From: an uncultured Bacilli bacterium
GTDB lineage: Bacteria; Bacillota_I; Bacilli_A; RF39; UBA660
Reading direction: 5' to 3'
NCBI GenBank assembly: GCA_947624955.1
Contig: CANQMM010000003.1
Coordinates: 1 to 54,295 of the forward strand
DNA: 54,295 bases
Within the stretch, counting starts at the first letter, position 1. The number at the start of each line of letters is the position of its first letter. A program made the position numbers and the translations under genes. This document shows positions 10,930 through 46,532 of this stretch, piece by piece. Under the pieces are notes generated by a model, which worked only from the letters and a program-made list of their open reading frames with translations, ran no database searches and was not told the DNA's origin.

Positions 10930-11445
10930 TTGAAGTCGACTGGAGTAATTAAGAAGATGGATGAGTTAGGAAGAATTGTCATACCTAAAGAGATGCGCAG
11001 AATTCTCAATATAAGGGATGGCGAAGTATTAGAATTATTTGTTAGTGATGATAATTTAGTAATGAAAAAACACGAAAGTTTTGAAGGGGTTATTAACAGT
11101 ATAACAAGAATAATAGATATATTTGATGAAGCAAGGATTTGTAAAAGTATTATCGTTGATAAAGAAAAAGTATTAGTAAGCAATATAAGTGATGCTAATG
11201 TAGCAATCAGCGATGTGTGTAAAAGCTATATAATAAATCGAGAAGAGTTAGTTGATGAAAATAATAGTTTAAAATTGGGGGAAAATTTAAATGGGAAGTA
11301 TTTATTTTTTTGTCCTTTAATTACGGATTTAGATGTAATTGGTGGAGTTATATTGGTATTCGATGAAGAGATTGATGAAGAGAAGAAGAAAATAGGTAGA
11401 TTGATGGCTAAATTGATAACTAATTGTATTGGTACTTTGGGTTGA
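10930..11445 (+). CDS. spoVT: stage V sporulation protein T (AbrB-type regulator)
   Basis: SpoVT is a forespore transcription factor that tunes sigma-G genes and spore coat/cortex formation. The 171-residue protein has the N-terminal AbrB-like swapped-hairpin DNA-binding domain (VIKKMDELGRIVIPKEMRR, residues 5-23) and a C-terminal GAF-like domain, the SpoVT architecture. Plain AbrB has about 95 residues and no GAF domain. The start is TTG 10930 behind GGAGTGA; no ATG precedes the conserved N-terminus. In B. subtilis it follows mfd directly; here a toxin-like locus and a lipoprotein gene lie between them. Confidence 0.9.
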   Translation: MKSTGVIKKMDELGRIVIPKEMRRILNIRDGEVLELFVSDDNLVMKKHESFEGVINSITRIIDIFDEARICKSIIVDKEKVLVSNISDANVAISDVCKSYIINREELVDENNSLKLGENLNGKYLFFCPLITDLDVIGGVILVFDEEIDEEKKKIGRLMAKLITNCIGTLG

Positions 11446-11470
11446 TTAAATAAGATAAATGTGATATTAT
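11442..11470 (+). promoter_or_regulatory. promoter of the metS T-box transcript
   Basis: TTGATT (11442-11447), 17 bases and TATTAT (11465-11470, extended by TGA) overlap the spoVT stop codon. The predicted start is near 11477. Confidence 0.65.
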
Positions 11471-11476
11471 AAACTC

Positions 11477-11673
11477 GTATTTAACGAGGAAGAGATGGGT
11501 AAATATTTAGTAATTTATAGAGAGTTTATGGTTGGTGAAAATAAACAATTACGGATATTGAGTATGGATCTTGGAGTTAAAACGGGTAATTCCGTTATGA
11601 ATAAAGTGTATGATTAGTTCATAAACTAAGGTGGTACCGCGAGTAATTCGTCCTTAGATTTATGGGCTTTTTT
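11477..11673 (+). promoter_or_regulatory. T-box riboswitch (Met) controlling metS
   Basis: The T-box sequence AAGGTGGTACCGCG (11628-11641) is canonical. A stem I region precedes it with an AGAGAG GA-motif (11519-11524) and a likely Met specifier codon ATG near 11563-11565. Downstream, CATAAACTAAGG (11620-11631) can pair with CCTTAGATTTATG (11652-11664) followed by Ts, forming the terminator. The alternative antiterminator uses the T-box bulge, which binds the acceptor end of uncharged tRNA. Uncharged tRNA-Met would therefore raise metS expression. The specifier assignment is by eye; the T-box itself is certain. Confidence 0.9.
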
Positions 11674-11690
11674 ATTTAGGAGGAAGAAAT

Positions 11691-13223
11691 ATGGAAAAGA
11701 AATATGCAATTACAACGGCGATAGCTTATACGTCAGGAAAACCTCATATTGGGAATACTTATGAGATTGTTTTAGCTGATGCTATTGCAAGATTTAAAAG
11801 ATTACAAGGTTATGAGGTGTATTTTCAAACCGGTACTGATGAACACGGGGAAAAGATAGAATTAAAAGCTAAGGATGCAGGAGTTACACCCCAAGAATTT
11901 GTCGATGATGTAGCAGGTTCAATTAAGAATATCTGGGATTTAATGAATACGAGTTATGATAAGTTTGTTAGAACGACGGATAAGCATCACGAAGAAATAG
12001 TCCAAAAGATATTTAAGAAAATGTATGATAAGGGTGACATCTATAAAGGAGAATATAAAGGCTTATATTGTACGCCTTGTGAGTCATTTTGGACAGAGTC
12101 TCAACTTATCGATGGCAAATGTCCGGATTGTGGTAGAGGAGTCAAGATAGCGAGTGAAGAAGCTTACTTCTTTAAACTAAGTAATTATCAAGATAGATTA
12201 GTTAAATATATCGAAGAGCATCCGGAATTTATTCAACCTGAAGCGAGAAAGAATGAAATGCTAAATAATTTTATTAAGCCGGGATTACAAGATTTATGTG
12301 TATCAAGAACCTCTTTTAAATGGGGAATTCCCGTTACTTTTGACCCAAAACACGTCGTTTATGTATGGCTTGATGCTTTAACTAACTATATTACTTTTAT
12401 GGGATATGATCCGGATGGCAGCAGTGATAATTTCAAAGAGTGGTGGCCCTGTGACCTACATTTAATTGGTAAAGACATTATCCGTTTTCATACCATCTAT
12501 TGGCCTTGCTTTCTTTGGAGTTTAGACTTAGATTTACCAAAGCAAGTATTTGGACATCCTTGGCTTTTAATGAGCAATGATAAAATGAGTAAAAGTAAAG
12601 GTAATATTATCTATGCGGATGATTTAGTAAATACTTATGGAGTAGATGGCGTAAGATACTATTTATTACACGAAATACCTTTTGGTAATGATGGGAATAT
12701 TACTAATGAGTTAATGACAGAAAGATATAATTCGGATTTAGCGAATGTTTTAGGTAATCTAGTTAACCGAACCATTTCAATGAGTAAGAAATATTTTGAT
12801 GGCGTAGTTACGAATACTAAAGTTTATGAAGAGGTGGATGACAGTCTAATTAGTTTAGCTTCTTCTTTAGCAGATAGAGTTAGTGAAAAGATGGAGGAAT
12901 TACACGTAGGCGATGCTTTAGAGTTAGTTATGGATATGGCTAAAGCTTGTAATAAGTATATCGATGATACGGCACCTTGGGCTTTAGCAAAAGATGAAAG
13001 TAAGAAAGAAAGATTACAAACAGTTTTATATAATTTAATTGAAGCTATTAGAATTATTGCGGTTTTGTTACAGGCCTTCTTACCGGAAACTAGTGAAAAA
13101 ATCTTAAAACAAATTAATGCCACTGATAATAGTTTAGAATCGACGAAAGAGTTTGGAGTTTATAAATCAGGAAGTGTTGTTAATGAACCGGAAGTACTAT
13201 TTGCAAGGATTGAAAATAAGTAA
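11691..13223 (+). CDS. metG: methionyl-tRNA synthetase
   Basis: A class Ia synthetase charging tRNA-Met. The 510 residues carry the HIGH-type motif PHIGNTYE (about residue 20), the zinc knuckle CTPCESFW...CPDCG, and KMSKSKGN (about 300). The protein stops after the anticodon-binding helical domain and lacks the C-terminal EMAP-II-like tRNA-binding domain present in the 664-residue B. subtilis MetS. The start follows AGGAGG at 11678. It is controlled by the T-box leader and overlaps tatD by one base. Confidence 0.95.
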   Translation: MEKKYAITTAIAYTSGKPHIGNTYEIVLADAIARFKRLQGYEVYFQTGTDEHGEKIELKAKDAGVTPQEFVDDVAGSIKNIWDLMNTSYDKFVRTTDKHHEEIVQKIFKKMYDKGDIYKGEYKGLYCTPCESFWTESQLIDGKCPDCGRGVKIASEEAYFFKLSNYQDRLVKYIEEHPEFIQPEARKNEMLNNFIKPGLQDLCVSRTSFKWGIPVTFDPKHVVYVWLDALTNYITFMGYDPDGSSDNFKEWWPCDLHLIGKDIIRFHTIYWPCFLWSLDLDLPKQVFGHPWLLMSNDKMSKSKGNIIYADDLVNTYGVDGVRYYLLHEIPFGNDGNITNELMTERYNSDLANVLGNLVNRTISMSKKYFDGVVTNTKVYEEVDDSLISLASSLADRVSEKMEELHVGDALELVMDMAKACNKYIDDTAPWALAKDESKKERLQTVLYNLIEAIRIIAVLLQAFLPETSEKILKQINATDNSLESTKEFGVYKSGSVVNEPEVLFARIENK

Positions 13224-36117: not shown

Positions 36118-36238
36118 CCAATAAGCGATTTTGTTTTTCACTAAATCTTCATAATTTTTTCTCAAAGTTGCCATAATAATTAACTATAATTTTATTGTTC
36201 TTTGTGGTATAATGCTATTACAATAGGTGGTGGCTGGG

Positions 36239-37183
36239 ATGCTAAAGACATTTAAAACGCTCGATGAACAAATCGAGATTTTAAAAAGTAAGGGTTTAGA
36301 AGTTGAAGATTATGAGTATACTAAAGATGTATTACTTCGGGAAAACTATTTCTTTATTAGCGGTTATAGACACCTATTCTTGAAGTCACCACAAGATAGA
36401 ATGTTTATACCGGGAACAACTTTTAGAGAGTTATATGCCCTATTTACTTTCGATAGGCAAATGAGAAATATCGTTTTTAAAAACCTTTTAATTGTTGAGA
36501 ATAATGCTAAAAGTATATTTTCTTATATGTTATCGAAGAAATATGGTATTAAAGAAAAGAGTTACTTAAATGCGTCTAACTTTAGTAGAGATCCGGAAAA
36601 GTCTAAACAGATAAATGACCTTATCAAGAAGATGAAAAGACAGATTAGAATAAATGGAGGACAACATACAGCAACGAGTCACTATATCAATAACTACGGT
36701 TATGTACCTTTATGGGTTGTGGTGAAAGTTCTATCTTTTGGAATAGTTAGTGAATTATATTCGATTTTAAAGAAAGAAGATCAAGTAGATATCGCGGATG
36801 TTTATGGAATAAAAGTAGATGATTTATTAGTATATTTACCAATATTATCTAATTACCGTAATTTATGTGCTCACGAAGATATCTTGTATGACCACCGAAC
36901 ACAAAGAAGAATTGATGATACGAAATATCATTATTATTTAGGAATTCCGATGATGGATGGAGAATATATCTATGGCAAAGATGACTTATTTGCATTAGTA
37001 ATTATTCTGAAAAGATTGTTAAGAGAAGAAGATTTTACAATGTTTATGAATGAGGTATCTTATGAAATATCTTTATTGGAAGGAAGATTACATAGTATAA
37101 GTATTCAAAAGGTTTTAGATAAGATAGGTTTTCCGCCAAATTACAAGGAAATAGTAAGGATGGATAGTTATGGAAACGAATGA
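36239..37183 (+). CDS. Abi_2 (AbiD/AbiF-like) HEPN protein
   Basis: The 314-residue protein belongs to the Abi_2 family of abortive-infection proteins. It opens with LKTFKTLDEQIEILKSKGL and has ENYFFISGYRHLFL, FDRQMRNIVFKNLLIVENN and the HEPN RNase motif Arg207-x4-His212 (SNYRNLCAHEDILYD). This suggests an RNA-cleaving toxin held in check until infection. The start is ATG 36239, 8 bases after AGGTGG; the in-frame GTG upstream overlaps that site. Promoter: extended -10 TGGTATAAT near 36205-36213. Unusually, its stop overlaps the start of htrA by 14 bases, so the two are co-translated. Related AbiF genes are reported with neighbouring regulatory RNAs; none is obvious here. Confidence 0.82.
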   Translation: MLKTFKTLDEQIEILKSKGLEVEDYEYTKDVLLRENYFFISGYRHLFLKSPQDRMFIPGTTFRELYALFTFDRQMRNIVFKNLLIVENNAKSIFSYMLSKKYGIKEKSYLNASNFSRDPEKSKQINDLIKKMKRQIRINGGQHTATSHYINNYGYVPLWVVVKVLSFGIVSELYSILKKEDQVDIADVYGIKVDDLLVYLPILSNYRNLCAHEDILYDHRTQRRIDDTKYHYYLGIPMMDGEYIYGKDDLFALVIILKRLLREEDFTMFMNEVSYEISLLEGRLHSISIQKVLDKIGFPPNYKEIVRMDSYGNE

Positions 37184-38282
37184 AAGAAAAACTAAATGGG
37201 GAGTTACTATCGTATTATGTATTATTTGTATCTGTGTTGGAGCAATAGTCATGTATGGCTTATTCTATTTTTTCCCAACCAAGTTATCTTCTGTAACCAA
37301 TATTAATAAGTTAGAAAAAGAGGTAACTGTTAATGAAAATGGTATTAGCGATGCAGTAGAGAAGATTTATGATGCGGTTGTAGTAGTAGAAACTTATAAT
37401 AATGGTCGAGGTATTGCAAGTGGAACTGGGTTTGTTTATAAACTAACAGGTAACGGTTATGCTTATATCTTGACTAATAACCACGTTATTGAAGATGGTA
37501 ATGAAATTTATGTGACTTTTACGGATGGGAAAAGAGTTAGAACAAATATAATAGGTAGCGATTCCTATGCGGACATTGCAGTTTTATCGGTAAGTGAAGA
37601 TGCAATTATCTCAGTAGCGGAATTAGGTAGTAGTGTAGATGCTAAAGTAGGAGATACGGTGTTTGCTACGGGAGCACCGCTTGATAGTGCGACATATTCT
37701 TGGACAGTTACAAGAGGAATTGTATCCGGTAAAGATAGAATGGTCGAGGTAAGTACGGATAGTAGTAATTCCGCCGATTGGATTATGAAAGTATTGCAAA
37801 CAGATGCGGCGATTAATTCAGGGAATAGTGGTGGGCCACTAGCTAATTCTAACGGTCAAGTAATTGGAATTAATTCCTTAAAATTAGCATCGACGGGAGT
37901 AGAAGGTATGGGATTTGCCATTCCAATTGAGGACGCTCTAGCGATTGCTGAGAAACTAGAAAAAGGGGAAAAGATTGTTAGACCAGTTCTAGGTATATCA
38001 ATGTATGATGTTAGAAATACCGCTTATGTGACCCATTATGGAATAGTGGTTCCTGATGATGTAAATGCTGGAGTGGTAATTGCTAGTATCGAAAGAGGTT
38101 CGAGTGCCGAAAAAGCCGGGTTAAAAGTCGATGATATAATCGTTAAAATGGGAGATGCAGATATAACATCTGTAGCAATGTTAAGATATCAATTATATAA
38201 ATACGAAGTCGGAGATAAAGTGGAGGTAACTTACTACCGGGATGGAAGTAAGCGGACGGCTACAGTGACGTTGACAAATTAA
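37170..38282 (+). CDS. htrA: HtrA/DegP-family serine protease
   Basis: The 370-residue protein is an envelope quality-control protease. It has one N-terminal membrane span (VTIVLCIICICVGAIVMYGL), a trypsin-like domain with the triad His105 (LTNNHVIED), Asp135 (SYADIAVL) and Ser220 (NSGNSGGPL), and one C-terminal PDZ domain (about 290-365; AEKAGLKVDDIIVKM). B. subtilis HtrA-type proteases have the same layout and face outward. It overlaps the Abi_2 gene and is followed by a strong terminator. AAGGATGG is the ribosome binding site. Confidence 0.92.
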   Translation: METNERKTKWGVTIVLCIICICVGAIVMYGLFYFFPTKLSSVTNINKLEKEVTVNENGISDAVEKIYDAVVVVETYNNGRGIASGTGFVYKLTGNGYAYILTNNHVIEDGNEIYVTFTDGKRVRTNIIGSDSYADIAVLSVSEDAIISVAELGSSVDAKVGDTVFATGAPLDSATYSWTVTRGIVSGKDRMVEVSTDSSNSADWIMKVLQTDAAINSGNSGGPLANSNGQVIGINSLKLASTGVEGMGFAIPIEDALAIAEKLEKGEKIVRPVLGISMYDVRNTAYVTHYGIVVPDDVNAGVVIASIERGSSAEKAGLKVDDIIVKMGDADITSVAMLRYQLYKYEVGDKVEVTYYRDGSKRTATVTLTN

Positions 38283-38304
38283 GCAACTTGAGGGTTGCTT
38301 TTTT
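38281..38304 (+). terminator. terminator after htrA
   Basis: AAGCAAC (38281-38287), loop TTGAGG, GTTGCTT (38294-38300), then Ts to 38304. It overlaps the stop codon. Confidence 0.85.
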
Positions 38305-38446: not shown

Positions 38447-41400
38447 ATGAAAAAAATAGGAAAAAGAGCATTATCTTTATTGTTAGTAATGGCTTTATTA
38501 TTTAACTACTTTACACCTTTATTAGCTGTAGCAGCTGAGGATCTTAGTAACAGCACAACAAATAATGTTGCAATGGATAAGATTGTAAGTAAAGGTAATA
38601 TTGAGGTTGAACTACATTTAGTATTACCAATAAGGAATAGTGAAACAAATGATATTAATTTTGGAATAGCCGATGAAAATGGTAATAAGGCAGCTATCGA
38701 TTTAAATGAGGTTAATAAACCGGCAGATGGATATTACCAGACTAGTATAGATTTGGGTAGTCAAAAAATTACGGCGGCCGTGACCGAAAGAGATAAAGAT
38801 GGGCATTTACTTAGTGGTATTAACAAGAGTGAAAATGTTGTCTATGTAAGTGTTAATCTTTACGAACTTGCTAAAGGAACTTATACATTAGAATTAAGTG
38901 GTAAACATTTTGCAACTTATAGTGTTTCCGTTACTTTAGATGACTATTCAAAGAGAGTAATGATTAGTGATGAAGCAGGTTTATTTACTATTGGGGATGT
39001 TAACCAAGATAAGGTAGTAGATGAGAAGGACTATGCTTTAGTAAGAGATAATCTTGAGACGAATAAAGCAGAGTATGACTTAAATTTAGATGGCGTAGTC
39101 GATATTGCGGATCTAAACTATGTAACAGCAGCGATTACTTCTGCTAAAAAGACCGTAAAAATAGAAAATACTAGTGCGATTATTAATAGTGAAAATATTT
39201 CTTTTGAAGTAGGAAAAGACATACTTGCAGAAGATAGTGATAGCGTTAGTTCTTTATTTACGGATGAAGGGGTTGTTAAACTTCAACAAGTTGGCGAAGA
39301 ACCCGTTGAATTAGGAATTAATTTAAGTGGCGAAGAAGAAACCGCAACAGTAGAAATGAGCGAGGTAAGAATTACGGTGGGCGATAATGCCCCGGTGGGA
39401 ATGAAACTACGTGTCGAAACAGAATCCGGAGAAATAATCGAAAAAGAGGTTGCTAATAATACTAATGTACCGGAAGGAGTTCATCTATTTACGGACGAAG
39501 CTAAAGAAGGAACTATTAGAGTAGACTTAGGTAAACAAGTAGCGGTTAAAAAAGTAACAATTGTTGTTACAGAAACCGGCGAAAATAATTTAGCGGAGAT
39601 TGCGAAAGTAGAATTCTTAAATAATGTTAAAGTACAGACTAAAGAACCGGATAATTTTTATACTCCACAACACATTAAGGTAGATGATTCAGTTAGTGAA
39701 CAATTAACCGTTACTTTTGATAGTGTACCTAATGTTACTGGCTATGAAATTGAAATTACGGGCGGCAAGATGAAAGGAGTTGTTTTCCAAACAACTTATA
39801 CATCATTTACTATTGAAGATTTGGAAAACTATACGGAGTATGCAATTAGAGTACAATCAGTTAATCAAGAATGGCGAAGTGGCTATAGTGAAATAGTTAA
39901 AGCAACGCCACAAGCAACTAGAGTACCACCGGCTCCAGATATGGTAAATACGAAAGCAATTTATGGTGGTATTGAATTTGATTGGAAAGATATGGATGAT
40001 ACTTTAACTTATAATATATATTACCGTTTAGTAGGGGATACTAAATGGACGAAAGTTGAAAATATTCCAACTAATAAGTATACTTTAAAAGGATTAAAAG
40101 GTAATACCGAGTATGAAGCTTATATTACGGGGAATAATCCACTTGGTGAAGGTAGTGCTAGTCAGACTGTTAAAGTTAAGACTTTAGAAGAAGCAGCAGC
40201 TATTGCTCCTAAATATAAAGTAATTAATGAATTTGATAGTGCTTTAGGTAGAACTAACCATATAAATGGCGTTTATTCTTCAAGTGGTACGATGGTTGGT
40301 AGCGAATATGCGATGTATGATGATAACTTTGCGACGTATTGGGAGTTACAAGGATGGCAAAGTGGATCCCATTATTATAATTTGGGTTATCCAATATTCG
40401 AACTTGATAAATCATATAAGATGGATGAATTTGTTATAACTGTTCCGGATAGTTATCCATATAGTTTAAAAGCGGGTTCTTATAATCCGAATGACCACGA
40501 CACATTAGTATATTATTGGAATGATACGGAAACTCGTACAGCTGATAATAAGAAGGTAGCTAATGGGGTATTATCAACAAGAACCGATGAAAATGGGCGT
40601 AAATACTATGTTCTTAAATTGCAAGATCCAATTGAAGCTAATGCAGTACAATTTGGGCTTACAGTTGTTGCTAATAATAATTTAATACAAATAGATGAAG
40701 TTAAATTCTATAATTACGATTCTTTAGTAGATGATGTTGCAGCTTTATTTACCGATGATTTAAGAGTAGAGTTAGCTGAAGGTGTTACTCAAGATACTAT
40801 TGATAAATTAAGAGTTAGAGCTAATACAAAGGATCACGATGAATATTCTCCTTACCGGGATAGTGTATTAAATGATTTAGATTATGCCGAAAAAATCTTA
40901 AAGGATGAAAACTTAAATGATGTAATGATTGTTAATCCAAATATTTCTAATACTTACAATGGTCATTTAAAATTTGCGATGACAATTAACGATTATCAAC
41001 CTTTAGGAATTGTGGCAAGACCGGGTGATACCTTAAATGTCTATGTTGGAAGTACAACCGGTAATGTAAATATCGAACTTGTTTATACTCAATTCTATGC
41101 GGAAGCGGGTTCTTGGAGTAAGACTTATAGTTTACAAAAAGGTCAAAACATTATTACTATCGATGCCATCGGTAGTGCTACTAGCGAACGCGGTGGAAGT
41201 GTCTATGTTAGATATAAATCAGCTCCTAGCGCTACTAATCAAATTAAAGTAAGAGTTAGTGGCGGCGTAAAAATTCCGGTATTGGATGTTTCTACTTTAA
41301 CTAGCGAAGCGGATAAAAAGACAGCAATTAATGAATATGTTAAAGAGTTAAAAGAATATACGGATGCCTTAAGTAGTGTATATACTAATGAAGGTAAGAC

Positions 41401-43597
41401 TTTTGATAAAAAAACGAGTGTCCTTAATTCAACGGAAATCGTTACGGAATATGGCATATTCTCTGTAGCTGCTACAGCAGTTATGGAAGCTTTGGAAGGT
41501 AAATCTAGTGATGCTAGTGAACAAGCTAATGTTTTACTAGAATCAACAGAAGCCTTTGATGAGGTGATGGAATTATTCTATCGACAAAAAGGGTTACAAA
41601 AACAAGCCGAAGATCCGAAAGATGAAATGCCAAAATCAAGAATTAACATTCGTTATATGCGAATGTTCGATGGAGCATTTATGTATGCCGGGGGATATCA
41701 TATTGGTATTGAATATGGTTCTATTCCGGGTTTAGTTCAAGCTCATCGTAATACTGATAGCGAAACGGGATATTTTGGTTGGGGTATTAGCCACGAGATA
41801 GGACATCAAATTAATCAAAAAGATACTGTCTTTGCGGAAGTAACTAATAATATCTATGCTTTACTTGCACAGACAAGTAACGATAGTGATAAATCAAGAT
41901 TAGAATTAAGTAATGTATATGAAAAGATTTATGATAAAGTAACAAGTCATACTATTGGTAGAGCGCAAAATGTCTTTGTTCAACTTGGTATGTATTGGCA
42001 GTTACATTTAGCTTATGATGAAGATAAAACTTTCGATGATGAAAATTCAATATTAGCGAAGATTAATCATATTTCTAGAACATATAACAATGTTAATAAA
42101 TATGGTAGAGATGAACTAACTATTCTATTTGCTAGTATGGCAGCGGGAAAAGATTTAACAGATTTCTTTGAAATTTGGGGATTAAAAGCAAGTCAGACGC
42201 TAAAAGATGAGATTGCTAGTATAGAAATTGATGGTCATAAATTAGAAAAAGAAACTAGAGCAATATATTATCTAAACGATGAAGCAAGAAGATATATTCT
42301 TGGTGGTGGAGAAGGCATTACTAATAAGAACATTCTTAATGCTAGTATTGCTTCTACAAGTAATGAAGATAAACGTGTAGAAATTAGCTTTAGTGTAACT
42401 AGCGAAAAAGATAAGATTCTAGGTTATGAAATTCTTCGTAACGGTGTATCTATTGGTTTTGTCACTGATGGAGGTACTTTTGTAGATAATGTTGGAGCCG
42501 AAAATAATCGCGCTTATACATATACAGTAGTAGCTTATGATTACTTACTTAATAAAACGGATGTGGTAACTTTAGATGAAGTTAAGATAAGTCACGATGG
42601 TAGTGTTAAGAAAGATACATTTACGATTACTTCAAATGTCAAAGAAGCAGGTGAAGTTGTCGATAACGAAGATGAAAAACTAGATTTTGGTAAATTAAAA
42701 GTCAATAATCTAATTGATGGTAATATATTAACAGGATTTAAAGGAGTAGAAAAGATTAGTACTTTAAATCAAACAACTGATAAACCTAGTCTTACTGTTG
42801 ATGACGGCAATGCCTATATTATTATTAATTTGAATAATCCAATGAGTGTTAGTGGTATTAAGTACCGGGCTTTAGTAGAAAATGGTGTTCTTGATACTAA
42901 CACAATTAAGAAATATAAAGTTTATGTAAGTAGTGATGGCAATACTTGGACACTTGCAAGAACGGGGACATTTAATGTAACTGTGGAAAACCCTGAAGAA
43001 ATTATCTACTTTATGGGTCAAGGTACTGATAGTGAAAGTCAATTATGGACTTATAATGATATAGCTTATATTAAGATTGAATCAGATGGTAATAAAGCTG
43101 GTTTATCAGGGTCCGAAATCGATGTAATCGCTCCTCCGGGAGATAATGTTGATTTTAATGAAAATGCCATAGGTAAACTTGCAAAAGATTATTGCTACTT
43201 AACTGAAGGATGTAGTGAGGAAGACTTAATTAAAGCTGGTTCAGTTATTATTCAAGGGACTTATCGTGGTAATCCTTCATTCAATAATGTATTGATTGGT
43301 GATGCTGCTAACGAGAAAAAACCTTATAGTGGTAAAGCATTAATATTTGCAGAACTTAATAGCGATCATTCAGTTTATGATGTAGCGAGCGGTACTTGGT
43401 TATATGTAATGACTCAAGAAGAATATGAAAAGATGAGAAGTGAATCAAGTAGTATTCGTGCTTACTTATATCGAGTTAATGATGCAATTACTTTAGCGGG
43501 TCAAAGACTTACAAGTACTTCAAAAGTAATTAGCGAATTAAAACCTTATTCTGAATTATCAGATATGGAAATTATTAGTGCTAATGCTAGCAACTAG
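38447..43597 (+). CDS. secreted M60 (enhancin/mucinase-like) metallopeptidase with dockerin, FN3 and discoidin modules
   Basis: A 1716-residue exported protein. Signal peptide about 1-29 (LSLLLVMALLFNYFTPLLAV...). A dockerin-like module follows at 183-231 with two calcium loops (Asp184-x-Asn186-x-Asp188...Asp195; Asp211-x-Asn213-x-Asp215...Asp222). Fibronectin III domains lie at about 405-490 and 495-585, and a discoidin/F5-8C domain at about 595-765. The M60 catalytic region (about 830-1290) carries zinc motif HEIGH 1116-1120 plus Glu1131. A further FN3-like and a second discoidin domain follow (about 1310-1570). M60 enzymes cut mucin-type glycoproteins. The start is ATG 38447 after GGAAGGAG; the upstream in-frame TTG would bury that site. 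No sortase motif or membrane anchor is seen, and the next gene may supply the anchor. Confidence 0.85.
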   Translation: MKKIGKRALSLLLVMALLFNYFTPLLAVAAEDLSNSTTNNVAMDKIVSKGNIEVELHLVLPIRNSETNDINFGIADENGNKAAIDLNEVNKPADGYYQTSIDLGSQKITAAVTERDKDGHLLSGINKSENVVYVSVNLYELAKGTYTLELSGKHFATYSVSVTLDDYSKRVMISDEAGLFTIGDVNQDKVVDEKDYALVRDNLETNKAEYDLNLDGVVDIADLNYVTAAITSAKKTVKIENTSAIINSENISFEVGKDILAEDSDSVSSLFTDEGVVKLQQVGEEPVELGINLSGEEETATVEMSEVRITVGDNAPVGMKLRVETESGEIIEKEVANNTNVPEGVHLFTDEAKEGTIRVDLGKQVAVKKVTIVVTETGENNLAEIAKVEFLNNVKVQTKEPDNFYTPQHIKVDDSVSEQLTVTFDSVPNVTGYEIEITGGKMKGVVFQTTYTSFTIEDLENYTEYAIRVQSVNQEWRSGYSEIVKATPQATRVPPAPDMVNTKAIYGGIEFDWKDMDDTLTYNIYYRLVGDTKWTKVENIPTNKYTLKGLKGNTEYEAYITGNNPLGEGSASQTVKVKTLEEAAAIAPKYKVINEFDSALGRTNHINGVYSSSGTMVGSEYAMYDDNFATYWELQGWQSGSHYYNLGYPIFELDKSYKMDEFVITVPDSYPYSLKAGSYNPNDHDTLVYYWNDTETRTADNKKVANGVLSTRTDENGRKYYVLKLQDPIEANAVQFGLTVVANNNLIQIDEVKFYNYDSLVDDVAALFTDDLRVELAEGVTQDTIDKLRVRANTKDHDEYSPYRDSVLNDLDYAEKILKDENLNDVMIVNPNISNTYNGHLKFAMTINDYQPLGIVARPGDTLNVYVGSTTGNVNIELVYTQFYAEAGSWSKTYSLQKGQNIITIDAIGSATSERGGSVYVRYKSAPSATNQIKVRVSGGVKIPVLDVSTLTSEADKKTAINEYVKELKEYTDALSSVYTNEGKTFDKKTSVLNSTEIVTEYGIFSVAATAVMEALEGKSSDASEQANVLLESTEAFDEVMELFYRQKGLQKQAEDPKDEMPKSRINIRYMRMFDGAFMYAGGYHIGIEYGSIPGLVQAHRNTDSETGYFGWGISHEIGHQINQKDTVFAEVTNNIYALLAQTSNDSDKSRLELSNVYEKIYDKVTSHTIGRAQNVFVQLGMYWQLHLAYDEDKTFDDENSILAKINHISRTYNNVNKYGRDELTILFASMAAGKDLTDFFEIWGLKASQTLKDEIASIEIDGHKLEKETRAIYYLNDEARRYILGGGEGITNKNILNASIASTSNEDKRVEISFSVTSEKDKILGYEILRNGVSIGFVTDGGTFVDNVGAENNRAYTYTVVAYDYLLNKTDVVTLDEVKISHDGSVKKDTFTITSNVKEAGEVVDNEDEKLDFGKLKVNNLIDGNILTGFKGVEKISTLNQTTDKPSLTVDDGNAYIIINLNNPMSVSGIKYRALVENGVLDTNTIKKYKVYVSSDGNTWTLARTGTFNVTVENPEEIIYFMGQGTDSESQLWTYNDIAYIKIESDGNKAGLSGSEIDVIAPPGDNVDFNENAIGKLAKDYCYLTEGCSEEDLIKAGSVIIQGTYRGNPSFNNVLIGDAANEKKPYSGKALIFAELNSDHSVYDVASGTWLYVMTQEEYEKMRSESSSIRAYLYRVNDAITLAGQRLTSTSKVISELKPYSELSDMEIISANASN

Positions 43598-43612
43598 GAA
43601 GGAGAAAGGAAT

Positions 43613-44503
43613 ATGAAGAAAAAATTATTACTTGTTATTACTCTATTAACTAGCATATTCTTTTTCTCTTTTTCTGCGCAAGCGCTAACTAAAATTAATT
43701 TTCAAGAGAAAAGTAATGGACATATAGATACTACTTTGCATTTTGAAGAAGGCTTTGTTGGTGGAATTGATATTACTTTTAACATTACAGGAAATGTCAA
43801 AGTTAAGGAATTCAGTTTTTCTGATAAAATAACGAGCGGCAATTACAATAAAGAGTATGAATATGATCAAAAGAATAATAGTTTAGTAGTAAGAGTGACA
43901 ACTGGTGGTATTGGAGCTAGTCATAATTTACTTAATGATAAAAAAGAATTAGTTCTTGGAACGATTGTTTTGGAATCTTCCGAAAAAGAAGATGTTACTT
44001 ATAAACTTTCTGAAAAAGAATTTAAGATTGTTGGTAATTATTGGGAACCCCAAGTTATTGCCCAAGAAAATATTACGTTAGGGGATAATACAGAGTTTGT
44101 ATTTAAAGCCGAAGTAATTAATGAGCCGGAAGAAGATAAACCTGGTGATGAAGATAATAAAGATACCGATGGAGATAATCCTCAAGATAATACTGATAAT
44201 GAGGACGAGAATAAACCAAGCGACTCTACCGAGGTAGATCCTAGTGATTCTGACGACAAACAAGGTGATGATAAGAATGAAGATGACAAAGACAATACGG
44301 ATAAAAATGATCAAGTAGATAAGGAAGAGCAAGAAGACAAAGAAGATCAAGAAAATAATTCAAAAGAAGAAGCAGAAGATAATAAAGTAGAAGAAGAAAA
44401 TAATACGATTACTTGGATTATTTTAGGGATTGCGGGAGTTGTATTTATTGCTTGCGTTGTTTGGTTTGGGTTAGTAAATAGAAAAAAGAGACTAGGAAAT
44501 TAA
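43613..44503 (+). CDS. membrane-anchored surface protein, possible cohesin-like ectodomain
   Basis: The 296-residue protein has a signal peptide (LLLVITLLTSIFFFSFSAQA), a beta-rich domain of about 140 residues (GGIDITFNITGNVKVKEFSF; ELVLGTIVLESSEKEDVTYK), a strongly acidic Asp/Glu/Asn/Lys linker (about 167-262), a membrane span (IILGIAGVVFIACVVWFGLV) and a basic tail (NRKKRLGN). The ectodomain's pattern and length suit the cohesin/carbohydrate-binding jelly-roll group, but this is only a likeness seen by eye. It follows the dockerin-bearing protease by 15 bases with GGAAGGAG, so both come from one operon. The acidic linker is a plausible wall-spanning spacer. Confidence 0.65.
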   Translation: MKKKLLLVITLLTSIFFFSFSAQALTKINFQEKSNGHIDTTLHFEEGFVGGIDITFNITGNVKVKEFSFSDKITSGNYNKEYEYDQKNNSLVVRVTTGGIGASHNLLNDKKELVLGTIVLESSEKEDVTYKLSEKEFKIVGNYWEPQVIAQENITLGDNTEFVFKAEVINEPEEDKPGDEDNKDTDGDNPQDNTDNEDENKPSDSTEVDPSDSDDKQGDDKNEDDKDNTDKNDQVDKEEQEDKEDQENNSKEEAEDNKVEEENNTITWIILGIAGVVFIACVVWFGLVNRKKRLGN

Positions 44504-44521: not shown

Positions 44522-44546
44522 AAAGGATGATGAGAGTCATCCTTTT
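44522..44546 (+). terminator. terminator after the surface-anchor gene
   Basis: AAAGGATGA (44522-44530), loop TGAGAG, TCATCCTTT (44537-44545), with a short T tail. Confidence 0.65.
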
Positions 44547-44636: not shown

Positions 44637-46532
44637 ATGGCTAAACAAATAGATCCTCACTTAAGTAATATTGGAAGTTATTTAGAACTAGAAAGAGATG
44701 CTAAATTTATAATTCCGGAATATCAAAGAAAGTATGCTTGGGAAATAGCAAACTGTGATAAATTATGGTCTGATATTACAGATTTTATTGAAAACGATAA
44801 TAGAGATCCGTATTTTTTTGGAACGATAATAATTAACTGTACTAATGATGATAAAGAACTAAGTTTAATAGATGGACAGCAACGAACAACAACTTTTATG
44901 CTTTTATTAAAAGCTTTATTAATTAAAATTAATGATACTTTAAAGCTGATGGTTGATGATGCGGAATCAGAACAACTTAGGAGAGCTCTAAGAGAAAGAC
45001 GAAGAACTCTAATGAAGATCTTATATAAAGCGGATGCGGAAGAAATTGCTGATGAACCAAATGATGTAAGCGACGCGAAAATATATAATTCTTTTGGTAA
45101 TTTAGTTAATCAATCTAATCAAGAGATATATAAAGATGAATTAACTAATATTATGCGAGCTTTAAATTATGAGGAAGCTGAGCAATCAGCAGTTAAAATA
45201 CCATATAAGCAGAAAGATAATCGCTATACTAATTTCTTTAGAAATTTTAAACATTTCTATTTTAAAGATGAATTAAATAAAATAGATTTTTTAAATAAAT
45301 TTACAAAAACATTTTTAGATGAGTGTCAGGTAATAGAAATAAAAAGTTGGAAAGTTGAACAAGCCATAACGATGTTTAATTCTTTGAACTCTGATGGCAT
45401 GCCATTAACGGATTCAGATATTATATATTCGAAGATGTTTGCAGCTGCCAAAGAGGAAGAAAGAAAATCATTAGGAGAAAAATGGCGTTATTTAGTTGAT
45501 ATTACTAGTAAATTAGAAAGTAGCAAAATAGTTAGTATTAGTGCATTATTAAATCAAAAGATGTACTTATATCGAAGTATTAATGGGGAAACAAGAAATG
45601 CCAGTGGTAATATTGATGTTACTACTCCAGGATTAAGAAGATATTATACAGATATTAATCCGACGTTAATTAAAAAACCATTAGAGTTTTGTGATGAATT
45701 AATTATTTTAACGGAAATTTGGAATATTGTAAAAGATAATAATGCTGTAAAAGTTTTGTTAAATTTTAATGATAACTCTAAATTATTTTTGGCCAGTTTC
45801 TTTCATCGGTATGATAGTTATTTTTCATTCGATGAAATGGGGAAGGTAAAAATAGAGGAAGATAATAAAGCAACTCTAATTAGAAATATTGAAAAAGTTG
45901 CTGAAATGATGTTGAGATTGTTTACGATACTAGCTTTAGTCGATGCTGGTTACTCTAGTTCAAACTTTAAAACTTTCTTATTTTCTGAAGAAATAAAACT
46001 AGCTGATGCCAATATTTCTTTGGAAGAAATTAGAGAAGATTTTAATACACATATTAATAAACAGTGGACAAAAGAAGAGATAAGAAGTAAACTGTATGAT
46101 TATGAAAAAAATGATATGGTTTATTTGAATGAGTATTTATATGCTAAAAATAATAATAAGCCTTTGGTAATATCGGCTGACATAGATATTGAACATATTA
46201 TGCCGCAAAGTGGAAAGAATATTAGAACTATTCAAAGTGATGCTAATATAGCTGATGATGAGATGTTTGCTGAGTATATAAATAAACTAGGTAATAAAAT
46301 TTTATTGGAATATAATATTAATCGTTCTATTAGCAATGAATGGTTTAGAACGAAAGTATCAACGAAGATTTCTGATAAGACAGGGTACATAAATAGTGGA
46401 TATCCTTTAGCCCAACATTTAGTAGAATTATATAGTGGAAGTGTAAAGCCTTATTGGACTAAAGTTGATATAGAGAATGCTACTAATGAAGCTGCTGATA
46501 GAATTGTCGAGTTTATTTTTAGTAATGATTAA
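44637..46532 (+). CDS. DUF262/DUF1524 protein (GmrSD-like, putative DNA defence nuclease)
   Basis: The 631-residue protein has an N-terminal DUF262 ParB-like nucleotidase domain (IIPEYQRKYAWEIANCDKLW; LSLIDGQQRTTTFMLL) and a C-terminal DUF1524 HNH-type nuclease with IDIEHIMPQS (His520). This two-domain layout is that of type IV restriction enzymes GmrSD and several phage-defence proteins that attack modified DNA in an NTP-dependent way. It starts behind AAAGGAGC, has its own promoter and terminator, and opens the accessory part of the window. The specific target is unknown. Confidence 0.82.
   Translation: MAKQIDPHLSNIGSYLELERDAKFIIPEYQRKYAWEIANCDKLWSDITDFIENDNRDPYFFGTIIINCTNDDKELSLIDGQQRTTTFMLLLKALLIKINDTLKLMVDDAESEQLRRALRERRRTLMKILYKADAEEIADEPNDVSDAKIYNSFGNLVNQSNQEIYKDELTNIMRALNYEEAEQSAVKIPYKQKDNRYTNFFRNFKHFYFKDELNKIDFLNKFTKTFLDECQVIEIKSWKVEQAITMFNSLNSDGMPLTDSDIIYSKMFAAAKEEERKSLGEKWRYLVDITSKLESSKIVSISALLNQKMYLYRSINGETRNASGNIDVTTPGLRRYYTDINPTLIKKPLEFCDELIILTEIWNIVKDNNAVKVLLNFNDNSKLFLASFFHRYDSYFSFDEMGKVKIEEDNKATLIRNIEKVAEMMLRLFTILALVDAGYSSSNFKTFLFSEEIKLADANISLEEIREDFNTHINKQWTKEEIRSKLYDYEKNDMVYLNEYLYAKNNNKPLVISADIDIEHIMPQSGKNIRTIQSDANIADDEMFAEYINKLGNKILLEYNINRSISNEWFRTKVSTKISDKTGYINSGYPLAQHLVELYSGSVKPYWTKVDIENATNEAADRIVEFIFSND

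Follow-up and report, generated by a model that had tools for sequence, protein, structure and literature searches.

A dockerin-bearing M60 protease and a neighbouring membrane protein with a predicted cohesin fold: a putative two-part surface tether in uncultured gut Bacilli

Type II X-dockerins of C. thermocellum bind cohesins on surface-anchored proteins, as described for the X-dockerins (XDoc) of ScaA or CipB with SdbA, OlpB and Orf2p, and ScaD and ScaG of the same species are single-cohesin surface anchors able to hold an enzyme directly (PMC5141474). Putative anchoring scaffoldins of the non-SLH type, in which a single cohesin is combined with a membrane helix at the C-terminus, have been reported as well (PMC11557425). 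In C. perfringens, the proteins with cohesins and dockerins that have been reported are glycoside hydrolases, and a mucinolysome has been described in Limousia (PMC12997984). A 2012 survey of M60-like (PF13402) proteins found a dockerin in 2 of 415 of them and drew Clostridium and Bacillus members with an unknown anchor (PMC3267712).

The window analysed here, a 54,295-nt stretch of DNA from an uncultured Bacilli bacterium, contains a pair of genes that combines these elements in a different way. The first encodes a dockerin-bearing M60 protease (38447..43597) and the second a membrane-anchored partner (43613..44503); both lie on the plus strand, as do all their features given below, and they are only 15 bases apart. 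As the initial annotation had noted, the two genes have the same ribosome site; in each case it is of the AAGGAGA type. A terminator-like hairpin (38281..38300, plus strand) separates the pair from an upstream htrA-like gene. The other end of the two-gene unit is probably marked by an inverted repeat 3' of the partner gene (44522..44545), which resembles a terminator when read on the minus strand and has a weak T run on the plus strand. The Pfam scan also identified an Abi_2-like protein (36227-37183) and a GmrSD-type restriction protein (44637-46532), one on each side of the pair, which are possible phage-defence genes. Our main reading of the locus, to which we assign a probability of roughly 0.86 on the strength of structural models and comparative genomics, is that the protease and its partner bind to each other through the dockerin and a cohesin-type head, forming a surface tether.

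The protease gene, an open reading frame from ATG to stop, encodes a secreted metalloprotease of 1716 aa (Pfam Peptidase_M60, E 2e-19). Its signal peptide (38447..38545, hydrophobic run LLLVMALLFNYFTPLLAVA) is followed, in this order, by an X-like module, the dockerin, two fibronectin type III domains (aa 406-485 and 495-589; 39662..40213), the M60 catalytic domain (aa 1032-1245; 41540..42181) and a weak F5/8 type C (CBM32-like) domain (aa 1452-1510; 42800..42976), the Pfam score of which, 28.1 bits, is slightly below the cut-off of 28.2. The zinc site HEIGH...E occupies aa 1116-1131, and both the HExGH motif and the downstream Glu ligand (E1131) characteristic of Peptidase M60 (PF13402) are invariant in a 12-sequence alignment. 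The closest solved relatives are the F5/8/ZmpC/ZmpA glycopeptidase entries of C. perfringens (E 5e-38 to 2e-18). Since these nearest relatives are glycopeptidases of the ZmpA/B/C type, mucin-type glycoproteins are the likely substrate and the enzyme is, by analogy, probably a mucin O-glycopeptidase. Past the signal peptide we found neither a hydrophobic span (the best 19-residue hydropathy is 1.39) nor a sortase motif, and hence no membrane or cell-wall anchor, in agreement with the initial annotation.

The two dockerin calcium loops recognised earlier near the N-terminus of the protease, DVNQDKVVDEKD (aa 184-195) and DLNLDGVVDIAD (aa 211-222), belong to a dockerin of aa 182-231 (38990..39139) that is matched by Dockerin_1, the type I dockerin family of Pfam, over aa 183-229 (23.4 bits, cut-off 22.9). 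The loop residues are invariant or near-invariant among relatives. A feature that had previously gone unnoticed is an X-like beta-sandwich module (aa 49-174; 38591..38968), which in the predicted structure stands immediately N-terminal of the dockerin. The AlphaFold2 model of aa 45-248, based on an alignment of 69 sequences, has a pLDDT of 94.3 and a pTM of 0.90, and its eight best solved matches are all type II X-dockerins (Z 11.2 to 10.5 over ~135 residues), with the X-dockerin dyads 5k39, 2b59 and 4fl4 at the top. The ninth-ranked match is the NagH dockerin of C. perfringens (2ozn_B; 1.1 A over 54 residues), and the top match that is not a dockerin has a Z of 8.0. Two duplicated F-hand calcium loops are present, and the two helices that follow them in the model match those of solved dockerins. 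The N-terminus of the protease is thus predicted to be a type II-like dyad of X-module and dockerin. In most relatives the second dockerin repeat (DLNxDG..DIAD) is much better conserved than the first, and one homologous M60 protein (L222) combines a decayed first calcium loop with an intact second one and still has its partner gene; together, these patterns suggest that one binding mode, via the second repeat, is dominant.

The partner gene, likewise open from ATG to stop, encodes 296 aa, and its product was described in the initial annotation as a single-span protein with a beta-rich head and a long acidic linker. This description is borne out: behind an N-terminal signal peptide lie a head (aa 25-165; 43685..44107), an acidic linker of 97 residues, 46% of them Asp or Glu (44108..44398), and a single membrane span (approximately aa 264-286; 44402..44470; hydropathy 2.74) with a short basic tail. 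A cohesin-like fold of the head was the point on which the tether proposal had been staked, and in prediction the proposal passed. The AlphaFold2 model of the head (alignment of 68 sequences; pLDDT 93.6, pTM 0.87) retrieved cohesins as the top Foldseek matches (E 3.9e-6), and with VIA-align ranks 1-48 were all cohesins (Z 13.3 to 9.2), the first other entry scoring 8.9. The head is accordingly predicted to have a cohesin fold, and sequence methods gave no indication of it: Pfam reported no match to the cohesin family PF00963, the head profile found no match among PDB sequences, and hhalign of the head against the other cohesin-like partner family returned nothing (probability 0.1%). The Pfam scan also matched the partner to eukaryotic membrane families, most likely an artefact caused by low complexity in its acidic linker and span. 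With its cohesin fold, as predicted, a stalk, a single span and no other or catalytic domain, the protein has the make-up of a monovalent non-SLH anchoring scaffoldin. The partner heads would then represent a family of cohesin fold that escapes detection by sequence, and counts of cohesin systems are for this reason probably too low.

Scanning GTDB genomes with the protease alignment yielded 76 loci, mostly from uncultured Bacilli MAGs with isolate names in 'Lapin' (presumably rabbit gut) and also from Erysipelotrichaceae, Romboutsia weinsteinii and Clostridia. The dockerin is present in all 72 of the protease reading frames that span the dockerin region, and the partner is the next gene 3' of the protease in every one of the 73 loci with readable downstream DNA, at a gap of -32 to +93 nt; L070 appears to be truncated, and L076 and L081 extend to contig ends. 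The neighbours of the pair vary from genome to genome, and the pair itself is retained. Recurrence in more than 70 relatives indicates that neither the dockerin loops nor the gene order arose by chance; because the two genes are kept together in all these genomes, one with a dockerin and the other with a predicted socket fold, the pair very probably constitutes a two-part surface-holding device. Residue-level co-variation, assessed as mutual information between protease and partner columns, was not enriched in the dockerin. In a mirror-tree analysis the dockerin window ranked 1-2 of about 110 over all sequences and 15 inside the close clade. Signals of co-evolution were in this sense weak or negative and, like the missing sequence link of the head to cohesins, count against the main reading.

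The loci above were collected with the protease alignment; a second sample consisted of M60 genes picked by the Pfam M60 domain alone from the same class and phylum, together with M60 genes met earlier, and their downstream DNA was searched with the partner profile. The partner was found in 9 of 9 loci of dockerin-type M60 genes and in 0 of the 36 remaining M60 loci whose downstream DNA could be read (Fisher p 1e-9, a value that ignores relatedness). The nine comprise seven with a plain dockerin, one with the decayed first loop (L222) and one cut before the dockerin region (L209). Conversely, a C-terminal membrane helix of the protease's own occurs in 14 of 37 other M60 proteins with complete ends, among them one from the same taxonomic family as the window (L217), and in none of the nine that are accompanied by a partner. 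As partner and own helix exclude each other in this sample, dockerin and partner occupy the place that the helix has in other M60 proteins.

These distributions also bear on the idea that the partner is no tether but an accessory factor with a fold like that of cohesins; it might, for instance, assist secretion as a chaperone, or be a surface protein that binds substrate and merely travels along with the protease. The head has no sequence link to cohesins, and cohesin folds also occur in proteins without known dockerin binding, such as TMEM132 (PMC6030884). However, the occurrence of the partner follows exactly that of the dockerin, not that of the M60 domain in general, the partner is exclusive with the protease's own membrane helix, and its span can be exchanged for other means of attachment, so that we regard an accessory role as improbable. 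One such exchange is seen in a Clostridia MAG (L105), in which the partner homologue (11109-12404, 431 aa) lacks the membrane span and has a dockerin at its C-terminus instead (Pfam 23.3 bits); in Romboutsia (L118) the partner tail consists of an NPTTG motif and a span, resembling a sortase signal. Interchangeable tails of this kind are as expected for an anchoring scaffoldin. The proposal that the partner tethers the protease, already put forward in the initial annotation, is therefore supported by comparative sequence evidence of three kinds, namely conserved adjacency, exclusion with the own helix and swapping of the anchor.

The L105 homologue also speaks for a larger, mucinolysome-like assembly, in which the partner head would take up other enzymes, or further enzymes would attach to the protease, to give a multi-enzyme complex. 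By sequence, the head is in this case placed on an adaptor-like protein comparable to an adaptor scaffoldin, with what is probably, as judged by eye, a second cohesin-like region, and Limousia has been proposed to form multi-enzyme mucin complexes via scaffoldins (PMC12997984). The window genome (1.17 Mb, 93% complete) speaks against such an assembly, as it encodes just four dockerin matches and two Pfam cohesin matches, no multi-cohesin scaffoldin was found in it, and the window partner is single-headed. A cellulosome or mucinolysome, in the sense of a scaffoldin with several cohesins serving many dockerin enzymes, is accordingly not what this 93% complete genome displays, and of the explanations weighed here we consider a larger assembly the least probable.

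A search of the genome for other dockerin proteins, as had been suggested, retrieved three besides the M60 protease. Two of them form further adjacent pairs of a dockerin enzyme and a cohesin-like anchor. On contig C15 (L042:8322-11949), an SH3b/glucosaminidase-like enzyme (the glucosaminidase label was assigned by eye) with a C-terminal dockerin precedes a cohesin-type membrane protein, an arrangement found again in most family genomes checked. On contig C30 (L041:3946-9326, minus strand), a papain-like (C1) protease combines lectin-like and Big_2 domains with a C-terminal dockerin, and the gene directly behind it encodes a surface protein of cohesin-like and cadherin-like character. Contig C43 (L043:157-7341) encodes an M26 IgA1-protease-like metallopeptidase that unites a cohesin at its N-terminus, two hydrophobic spans and a dockerin in a single chain, and long reading frames with cohesin matches similar to this protein are present in relatives.

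Given these genes, the dockerin of the M60 protease might bind another cohesin-type protein (that of C15, C30 or C43) while its neighbour serves a different dockerin protein, the gene order then reflecting mere co-regulation. The genome does hold three further dockerin proteins as well as further cohesin-type heads, and many dockerins are known to recognise several cohesins each (PMC5141474). Against this stand the one-to-one relation of M60 protease and partner, which is kept even in genomes as distant as that of Romboutsia, the presence of the partner beside dockerin-type M60 genes and its absence beside others, and the fact that the other dockerin pairs carry adjacent anchors of their own. 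Such cross-pairing seems to us unlikely, if marginally less so than the other alternatives considered.

Across the family the same layout recurs. Among the best 30 dockerin loci, 28 have a next gene with a cohesin- or Ig-like head at a gap of at most about 24 nt (one overlaps by 4), and in 58 family genomes 26 of 48 Pfam cohesin matches lie directly behind a dockerin match; of the heads behind dockerin loci, only some pass the Pfam cohesin threshold. Chances are about even, in our estimate, that small-genome gut Bacilli generally rely on private cohesin-dockerin pairs for surface display, with several secreted hydrolases (M60, papain-like and M26 proteases and a glucosaminidase-like enzyme) each having a cohesin-type anchor of its own, the anchors being mutually orthogonal. 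If true, a module long tied to multi-enzyme assembly would act as a one-enzyme-one-anchor lock.

For the pair in the window, tethering through dockerin and cohesin-type head would proceed as follows. The two genes would act as a single functional unit and be co-transcribed, the first giving a secreted M60 zinc metalloprotease that has an N-terminal X-module/dockerin dyad and lacks an anchor, and the second a dedicated anchor composed of one sequence-divergent head of cohesin fold, a long acidic stalk and one membrane span. Once secreted, the dockerin, presumably folded by calcium, would dock onto the neighbour's head in a calcium-dependent manner, and the protease would be held to the cell a stalk length away from the membrane, where its substrate would be mucin. 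The pair would supply an anchor for dockerin-bearing M60 proteases, and the bacteria that carry it may act on host mucin. More broadly, uncultured gut Bacilli with small genomes would employ cohesin-dockerin modules to tether an enzyme by a dedicated pair of parts, and not to assemble several enzymes; the M60 dockerin and its partner are also a possible orthogonal pair for engineered display.

The initial annotation held both the N-terminal position of the dockerin and a two-component M60 device to be undescribed. This claim goes partly too far, as the literature mentions N-terminal dockerins, and dockerin-bearing M60-like proteins (PMC3267712) and peptidases (PMC12997984) have been reported too. 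A two-component M60 device itself was not found: the open-licence papers searched describe neither an M60 protein paired with a cohesin nor comparable operons with one enzyme to one anchor, and the M60-like survey reported no cohesin partner (PMC3267712). A close counterpart is the type II X-dockerin of C. thermocellum, in which X-module and dockerin likewise dock on a surface-anchored cohesin; no solved structures match the N-terminus of the protease better than those of X-dockerins. In that system, however, the dyad is C-terminal on a multi-enzyme scaffoldin, whereas here it is N-terminal on the enzyme itself with the anchor gene adjacent, and the partner head shares no detectable sequence with cohesins. 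The putative non-SLH anchoring scaffoldins (PMC11557425) are identical in architecture to the window partner, but they and ScaD/ScaG either cater for a pool of enzymes or have partners that are unclear, while in the window a single partner is encoded together with a single enzyme. C. perfringens provides, in NagJ/NagH (2ozn) and ZmpA/B/C, relatives of both the dockerin and the protease, yet its cohesins sit on enzymes and give enzyme-enzyme pairs. The Limousia mucinolysome resembles the window locus in that cohesins and dockerins organise its mucin-active enzymes, among them peptidases with a dockerin, and in having a cohesin protein that is anchored, in its case to the wall; it differs in its multi-cohesin scaffoldins and in its more than 20 dockerin enzymes, where the window locus has a single enzyme and a single anchor (PMC12997984). 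The parts and the principle are thus known; what is new is a dedicated one-to-one X-dockerin/cohesin operon, as predicted here, on a secreted protease of small-genome Bacilli.
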